From: Nitrospiraceae bacterium
GTDB lineage: Bacteria > Nitrospirota > Thermodesulfovibrionia > Thermodesulfovibrionales > UBA6898
Length of the DNA: 33,273 nucleotides
Direction of reading: 5' to 3'
NCBI GenBank assembly: GCA_003153275.1
Contig: PLXX01000098.1
Location: 4,985-38,257, forward strand
A program made the translations under genes and the position numbers. Position 1 is the stretch's first letter. The number at the start of each line of letters is the position of its first letter. Of this stretch, positions 28,055 to 29,438 are shown piece after piece. Below the pieces are notes generated by a model. It saw nothing but the letters and a program-made list of their open reading frames with translations, had not been told where the DNA came from and did not search any database.

Positions 28055-28939
28055 TTAATTCAGCTTTTGGAGCTGAAGCCGACTCTTTTCATCATATCTC
28101 TTATAGGAAAGATAGTCCTCTTTTTTCATTTCAAATAATTGTTTTTTGTATTTTGTTGTAAGATCATACCAAAGTGTAAGTCGCCTCTCAAATCTCTGAT
28201 CCATCGGGCTTCCAAGCGTATCCAGATATGCCAGAATAGCCAAGTAATATCGCATGGCATTTCTCTCCTCCGAACCTCTTAACCCAGTTACATATTGCGG
28301 ATTGCCCTGTTTGTCATTTGCAACGGTAAAGCCAATTTTGCCCTGCCTAAAAAGTAAAAAATAGGTGTTAATTTTAAAATAGCTTAAAAAACTATAACCA
28401 AATAAGTAATGCAAGTGAATAAAGGTCGTGTTTTCATCGAGAGGTACAGCCTCAATTTGAAATTGATGATCCTTTGTACTAAAAGGTCCCTCATTGGCAG
28501 TAAGCGAAATTCTGAACTGTTTTTGCTGTTCATCAACAGCCAGCTTAAAATTTATTGGAAATGCATTTTCAATGGGGTCAGAATATCTTTTAACATTCTG
28601 GGCGGTCAAAAGCCAATCATTTTCAATCCTGTGATATGTGCAAGCTCTTATGTTGATTGTAAGCATAAGGATATCACACAGCCCAGATGGTTCCTTGAGA
28701 TTGTTTTTTACTATGTCAAAAGGATGATTCACTACGCCATAGATATCTACGTAGGAAGAGTTGCTATCCACAAATGATTCCATATGAACGGGGAGCCCGA
28801 AAGAACTTGTTTTCAGTCCATATTCAATCTCGTGATATTTCTCTAAAAGGGGCTTATTTGCTGGAAGTAATTCTTCCGCCTTGGCACTACTACCCCATAT
28901 AGTAAAAATCAGTATTATGACTGTTAGGCATTTACCCAT
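28055..28939 (-). CDS. Hypothetical exported protein
   Basis: N-terminal signal peptide (MGKCLTVIILIFTIWGSSAKA); 294 aa uninterrupted. Confidence 0.75.
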   Translation of the reverse strand: MGKCLTVIILIFTIWGSSAKAEELLPANKPLLEKYHEIEYGLKTSSFGLPVHMESFVDSNSSYVDIYGVVNHPFDIVKNNLKEPSGLCDILMLTINIRACTYHRIENDWLLTAQNVKRYSDPIENAFPINFKLAVDEQQKQFRISLTANEGPFSTKDHQFQIEAVPLDENTTFIHLHYLFGYSFLSYFKINTYFLLFRQGKIGFTVANDKQGNPQYVTGLRGSEERNAMRYYLAILAYLDTLGSPMDQRFERRLTLWYDLTTKYKKQLFEMKKEDYLSYKRYDEKSRLQLQKLN

Positions 28940-28968: not shown

Positions 28969-29189
28969 TTATTTGGTTTCCTTCATGGCTTCTCTTGCCT
29001 TATCCACGACACGGTGGACATTCCCAAGGCATCATTTCCCTGTGGGATTTGTTTCATGACATCGGCAGTACCAGCTTGTTTGGAAGCCTTGATTCTCTCA
29101 AGGATAGTGGACTCACCATTATGCTCCTTAACATCCTGCTCTATGTCAGATTCTGAATAGCCAAAACAATAACAAACTAGCTTACCCAT
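28969..29189 (-). CDS. CopZ-like / (2Fe-2S)-type metallochaperone, candidate selenoprotein; apparent -1 frameshift mid-gene
   Basis: Frame from ATG 29189: MGKLVCYCFGYSESDIEQDVKEHNGESTILERIKASKQAG; shifted frame continues YCRCHETNPTGK(TGA)CLGNVHRVVDKAREAMKETK* to TAA at 28969-28971. TGA 29032-29034 aligns to the first Cys of a CCLG motif. Confidence 0.65.
28996..29031 (-). promoter_or_regulatory. Putative bacterial SECIS hairpin (minus strand)
   Basis: TGCCTT...AAGGCA outer stem, TCCAC-CGTGTC-GTGGA upper stem; loop starts 19 nt after the UGA with G at loop position 2. Confidence 0.6.
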
Positions 29190-29195
29190 AATCTA

Positions 29196-29438
29196 TTAAT
29201 GCACAACCGTCATAGCTATGAATACCACTATGCCTGTCATGATAAAGGTTGGTATCAGAAATGCGAGAAGCATAGCCCATGCCCCTTTTTTGTTGCCCAG
29301 ATTGAAAGTCCAGCCAAGCACGGGATTTCTCTTAGGCACTATCCAGCGGGTATCCCGCTTGGAGAAGTAAAATCCTGGGGATGTCCAATTATCTGGATTT
29401 TCCCACTCGGATTTATTAATCTGGTTAATATCAGCCAT
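29196..29438 (-). CDS. Small membrane protein (DUF5808-like)
   Basis: WENPDNWTSPGFYFSKRDTRWIVPKRNPVLGWTFNLGNKKGAWAML plus one TM helix. Confidence 0.75.
   Translation of the reverse strand: MADINQINKSEWENPDNWTSPGFYFSKRDTRWIVPKRNPVLGWTFNLGNKKGAWAMLLAFLIPTFIMTGIVVFIAMTVVH

Follow-up and report, generated by a model that had tools for sequence, protein, structure and literature searches.

A frame-broken copy of a small CopZ-like selenoprotein gene in a Nitrospiraceae genome, and the probable role of its family in metal(loid) detoxification

Introduction

Does a TGA codon in a short, frame-broken gene encode selenocysteine (Sec), and if it does, what would the protein do? The question arises from a 33,273-nucleotide stretch of contig PLXX01000098.1 from a Nitrospiraceae bacterium, which we will call the window. 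An earlier note on the window, made from its sequence alone, proposed that a CopZ-like Fe-S protein with a UGA codon was hidden there by a missing base. We confirmed that this part of the window is a real, frame-broken copy of a small selenoprotein gene of the CopZ-N/BFD-like kind. We will call the family GxUC, after its motif. In our reading, the window holds a broken GxUC gene and the intact protein most likely acts in metal(loid) detoxification; judging from sequences and gene neighborhoods, we give this a probability of roughly 0.7.

Results

A small gene interrupted by a one-base gap

The minus strand of the window contains a 68-amino-acid open reading frame (28983-29189). The earlier note called it annotated, but it is an open reading frame only. 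It opens with MGKLVCYCFGYSESDIEQDV...STILERIKASKQAG (its initial residues, from 29189 onward, are MGKLVCYCFGYSESDIEQDVKEHNGESTILERIKASKQAG) and its likeness to the family is then lost. Past the break, the adjacent frame reads CRCHETNPTGK, the TGA codon, CLGNVHRVVDKAREAMKETK, and a TAA stop codon (28971-28969). After GGT (29072-29070), AC (29069-29068) is followed by TGC CGA TGT CAT GAA, which is one base short. In an alignment with L001/L055, the closest relative, in which the frame runs open across the break, the gap is a single base, in the codon between GGT and TGC (29067-29065). The proposed one-base frame break is thereby borne out. The features are listed in Table 1.

Table 1. Features of the broken gene and its surroundings (positions within the window)
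Feature	Positions	Strand	Evidence or remark
N-terminal part of the CopZ-N/BFD-like gene, codons 1-40, with CYC motif	29070..29189	-	frame intact
One-base deletion site (GGT AC- TGC)	29067..29070	-	by comparison with intact relatives
C-terminal part in the shifted frame, CRCHETNPTGK-U-CLGNVHRVVDKAREAMKETK, with TAA end	28969..29067	-	relatives and constraint
Selenocysteine codon, in-frame TGA	29032..29034	-	TGA in 80/80 relatives (best 80 of 137)
SECIS apical stem-loop, GTCCAC-CGTGTC-GTGGAT	29002..29019	-	98% paired, 84 sequences, compensatory changes
Outer arms of the hairpin, TGCCTT/AAGGCA (span)	28996..29031	-	64% of cells paired; less conserved family-wide
Upstream neighbor, 80-aa membrane protein with weak DUF5808 match	29196..29438	-	90%-identical gene in G021
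Downstream neighbor, 294-aa protein without family match	28055..28939	-	no known tie to the system

The frame-joined protein has relatives in 24 of 101 related genomes (best E = 7e-32). Also, comparison with relatives shows purifying selection on the frame that follows the shift (pN 0.18-0.32, pS 0.50-0.59). Together, these results argue that the joined reading is not due to chance.

TGA encodes selenocysteine across the family

We scanned 85,000 species genomes and kept the best 80 of 137 loci by score. TGA stands at the Sec codon in all 80 of these, which by record title come from Nitrospirota, Desulfobacterota, Gammaproteobacteria, Synergistota, and others. In the 101 related genomes, the relatives have TGA at the same codon, except for multidomain proteins with Cys, remnants, and the window's own halves. 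Similarly, among 296 Nitrospirota genomes, every short stand-alone match above 84 bits has TGA, and the weaker matches without it are multidomain Cys proteins (152-318 amino acids), fragments, and the broken half from the window. An in-frame TGA aligned with the Cys of homologs is what is expected of a bacterial selenoprotein. The earlier note had suggested that UGA replaces the first Cys of a CC pair, and it allowed that homologs might have neither Cys nor Sec at this column; the relatives have TGA or Cys there.

The host genome is a 2.5 Mb draft in 159 contigs (82.5% complete). It encodes tRNA-Sec (67.9 bits, on contig C50), and selA (611 bits) adjoins selB (374 bits) on contig C79, so the genome does not lack the Sec machinery, a lack that the note had named as grounds for refutation. 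SelB is present in 11/11 tested genomes with the UGA form (one of these is partial, where a contig ends) and in 2/14 genomes with the Cys form only; this comparison drew on 26 genomes in all and does not control for kinship. We rejected tRNA-Sec alone as a marker of genomes with the UGA form, as it gives no separation among near relatives (87/101 have it). We also dropped genome G015 as a clean swap to Cys in a genome that lacks Sec: it has selB, and its match is a remnant that lacks the initial CYC. This remnant (L024) has TGC where TGA stands in other members, and hairpin-like sequence persists in it.

As a SECIS element, we looked for a hairpin directly after the UGA whose loop lies at a distance of about 16-37 nt and has a G near its start. 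Both the hairpin in the window and the family alignment show this arrangement. In the window, the upper stem pairs GTCCAC (29019-29014) with GTGGAT (29007-29002) around the loop CGTGTC (29013-29008), and the outer stem pairs TGCCTT (29031-29026) with AAGGCA (29001-28996). The spacing from UGA to loop is 18 bases (the loop thus opens with base 19), and G is at loop position 2. The note's description of a general bacterial SECIS matches in its arms, loop distance, and G. Across the family, the 6-bp stem at 15-20/27-32 (with the UGA at 0-2) is paired in 98% of cells, with 84 distinct sequences; when one arm of the stem is slid as a control, pairing is just 23-57%. Both sides have changed in 10 stem cells, versus a mean of 1.3 and a maximum of 6 in 2,000 shuffles. 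For instance, C-G is replaced by T-A at 17/30, and the stem of L115 has T-A at 17/30, A-T at 18/29, and A-T at 19/28. The third codon positions 20 and 29 are nearly fixed (entropies of 0.09 and 0.32 bits, versus up to ~2 outside the stem). Also, within V-H/R-R-V-V/A-D, the choice of H or R and of V or A tracks the pairing of the stem.

Given the family-wide TGA, the covarying hairpin, the presence of selA, selB, and tRNA-Sec, and an intact paralog with UGA in the same genome (see below), these comparisons make it essentially certain that the UGA is read as selenocysteine in the GxUC family. UGA is a stop codon in table 11, yet we give very little credence to an ordinary stop that would leave a truncated protein of ~51 residues: the region after the TGA is conserved at the protein level across phyla, the Cys homologs read on past that point, and the SECIS covaries.

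Some members of the family vary around the Sec codon. In L105, L107, and L129, Cys precedes Sec to form a Cys-Sec-Cys triplet (GCUCLG or GCUCLP). Another relative (G130:C267:160-369) has two TGA codons within the match and is possibly a two-Sec variant. One relative, L155, which is 52% identical, lies on a contig classed as viral (IMGVR_UViG_3300036543_000108). And Nitratidesulfovibrio oxamicus, represented by a cultured strain, has two copies of the Sec gene (L063 and L064).

A putative [2Fe-2S] protein that scores below model cut-offs

Intact members of the family are small stand-alone proteins of about 70-80 amino acids with the motif NPxG-K/R-UCLxDV. The CYC, CxC, and U-C motifs are invariant. 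Judging from the Cys pattern, CYC and CxC are the expected ligand set of a [2Fe-2S] cluster. The note's reading of the gene as one for a CopZ-N-like Fe-S protein is supported. The AlphaFold model is helical and confident (pLDDT 91). A search with this fold gave no significant match; three of its four matches were Bfd entries, at E about 5. The window protein matches Fer2_BFD at 20.5 bits (E = 6e-4; the Pfam gathering cut-off is 26 bits), and 12/21 members match Fer2_BFD at E < 0.01. The domain of the CopZ copper chaperone proper, zf_CopZ (PF18423), has no match in the host genome and none in the 21 members.

The frame-joined window protein scores 47.5 bits against NF047645 (CopZ_Nterm_CC; cut-off 100) and 28.7 bits against NF045877 (CopZ_Nterm_CU; cut-off 190), and L003 has similar scores. 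All 21 members match the C-terminal part of the NF047645 model. No NCBIfam model was above its cut-off for the members checked, so annotation can easily truncate these genes at the UGA or overlook them.

The window gene is a second, damaged copy

The host genome has another UGA-containing paralog, which is intact, at C50:9273-9473, ~4 kb from tRNA-Sec. Nearby are ArsR, an ArsP-like permease, and a CGGC protein. The window gene is thus the second, damaged copy: as assembled, it cannot make the protein, and the paralog on C50 can.

In a tree of 90 rows, which is based on few columns, the window copy falls in a seven-row clade from Nitrospirota (98/96 support) with L055, to which it is 78% identical. 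In pairwise comparisons, both halves of the window copy are constrained, on par with pairs of intact genes. This fits either a disabling change of very recent date or a mistake in the draft sequence. We lean slightly toward a pseudogene rather than a sequencing error: the chances are a little better than even that the paralog in the window was inactivated recently and that the C50 copy carries the function. Besides the one-base deletion, the window copy shows Asn where the family almost always has Asp, and it has no arsenic or mercury marker or other detoxification genes around it. Also, the syntenic copy in genome G021 (L043:10593-11100, on C148) is a plain pseudogene, with a Cys-to-Tyr change, an in-frame TAA, and its own frameshift, which suggests that the locus tolerates loss. 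What does not fit so well is that the window copy has no further disabling change and that no relaxation is visible in its post-shift part.

It is somewhat less likely, at short of even odds, that the gene is live and the break is an error of sequencing or assembly, in which case the genome would make two such selenoproteins. The purifying selection in both halves would then be that of an intact gene, the SECIS, CxC, and Sec-Cys motifs are undamaged, and the genome is a fragmented draft. But the Asn at the Asp site and the clear decay of the G021 copy beside the same 80-aa gene are harder to account for in this way. Programmed frameshifting that joins the two frames would explain why both are conserved, but we consider it highly improbable, since the intact relatives, including the closest (L001), need no shift and a slippery run was not seen at 29072-29065.

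In G021, the DUF5808-like gene stays conserved (90% identical) while the adjoining Sec gene decays.

Many family members are found near arsenic and mercury genes

In the neighborhoods of the family, we found ArsP-type permeases, ArsR, Acr3, ArsC, ArsE-type thioredoxins, ArsG, ArsM, and MerA. As specific markers we used ArsC, ArsP, Acr3, ArsE, ArsG, ArsM, and MerA, chosen after the neighborhoods had been seen, and we excluded ArsR and plain thioredoxins. The marker families belong to one known system. Among the best 80 of 137 loci, 33 have at least one specific arsenic or mercury marker, as compared to 0/20 control regions, which were mostly around tRNA-Sec of the same genomes (Fisher p = 1.3e-4, which is optimistic because these very loci supplied the markers). 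For Nitrospirota alone, 13/22 loci have a marker (p = 2e-5, optimistic for the same reason). The other 47 of the 80 best loci have no specific arsenic or mercury marker. Several orders of genes around the Sec gene recur: ArsR-ArsC-ArsP-CopZU-TauE-ArsE, Acr3-Trx-CopZU-ArsG, and MerA-CopZU.

In a Myxococcales MAG (JALVPF010000149.1; L073:1806-3473), a complete MerA begins with the Sec domain (GRUCLGDV). The fusion is a single frame of 556 amino acids through the TGA, with a MerA match of 568 bits at residues 95-555. The N-terminus of MerA often carries HMA metal-binding domains. That the Sec domain lies where these are often found argues for a metal hand-off.

Arsenic is not the sole setting, as some loci have ChrA, CrcB-like, or general genes. 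The Desulfobulbaceae-type loci L098, L103, L104, L105, L112, and L117 have TauE, MFS, CrcB-like, and DUF190-like neighbors, with ChrA in several. At L061, L065, and L075, HgcA (the corrinoid protein of mercury methylation) is encoded a few kb from the Sec gene, and arsenic genes are present as well.

Discussion

A possible role in metal(loid) detoxification

The Sec codon, the SECIS, the Sec machinery, the family, and the neighborhoods are directly supported, and they suggest the following model. In intact copies, SelB and tRNA-Sec would read the UGA as selenocysteine, directed by the hairpin right behind it. The product would be a protein with a putative [2Fe-2S] cluster and a Sec-Cys pair. 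This pair might bind a soft thiophile such as As(III), an organoarsenical, or Hg(II); alternatively, the cluster might keep a partner reduced. Either way, the protein would serve an efflux pump or a reductase encoded alongside, presumably by a hand-off.

More specifically, and as a tentative proposal from sequence comparison, GxUC proteins could be Sec-armed metal(loid) chaperones for As(III), organoarsenicals, or Hg(II), and in one lineage would stand in for the usual N-terminal metal-binding domain of MerA. We find it about equally plausible, and still short of even odds, that the protein is a redox carrier and not a metal ligand, with the cluster and Sec-Cys pair feeding electrons to thioredoxins, ArsC, or ArsG. 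Sec is a redox residue in most cases, and ArsE-type and other thioredoxins, as well as ArsG (a DsbD-type membrane protein), often adjoin the Sec gene. But the fusion to MerA places the domain where HMA metal-binding domains are common. Detoxification of metal(loid)s, by whichever means, is the role we favor.

What is known and what may be new

Reviews from 2022 and 2026 list a (2Fe-2S)-binding protein (copper chaperone CopZ family) in form 1 and form 2 (PMC13188914; PMC9312934), so the GxUC family was already known. The 2026 review gives the motif of form 1 as GxUC and that of form 2 as CU (PMC13188914; PMC9312934). The searched text of these reviews (PMC13188914; PMC9312934) describes neither the neighborhood nor the function of form 1: in that text, the 2026 review makes only general links between selenoproteins and arsenic or mercury, and the 2022 review does not mention arsenic. 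The family's names are absent from the main text of papers from 2008 and 2016. In these portions of the literature, we did not find the setting of the family in arsenic and mercury gene clusters, or its fusion to MerA, described, and both may be new.

For a family that annotation easily overlooks, the UGA question is settled in favor of selenocysteine. In the window copy, the frame break and the Sec codon hide such a gene doubly. The conserved presence of genes for arsenic and mercury nearby, together with the fusion to MerA, leads to a testable idea, that anaerobes use selenium for the detoxification of metals.

Comparison with known systems

Bfd (bacterioferritin-associated ferredoxin) is similar to the family in its Fer2_BFD-like domain and CxC start, and it leads the fold matches, which lack significance. 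Bfd ends in CxxC, without the CC/UC pair. The N-terminal domain of CopZ from Archaeoglobus fulgidus (PDB 2hu9) aligns weakly over 56 positions (E = 0.056), with KPVCYC...C...NPSGRCC, but it lacks the second Cys of CxC and has Cys-Cys instead of Sec-Cys. A. fulgidus CopZ also carries an additional zinc site and has a copper-related function. The proteins of NF047645 and the Cys proteins L021-L023 share the CYC...CxC...NPxGxCC core with the GxUC family, but they have Cys-Cys, are longer, and have an extra N-terminal part; the window protein and L003 score ~47 bits against this model's cut-off of 100. NF045877 (the Csac_0668 family, or "form 2") has the same domain and also has Sec at the CC pair, but in second place (CU), in a model of 161 positions against which the members score 25-29 bits (cut-off 190).

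The closest counterpart is form 1 (cd10141, WP_245779778.1), which shares the GxUC motif and the family name (PMC13188914; PMC9312934). This match is by motif and name from one table row, rather than by the sequence of WP_245779778.1. The sequences that we aligned combine a CopZ-like domain with GxUC, and in form 1 as reviewed (PMC13188914; PMC9312934), Sec is the first of the two residues, as it is here.
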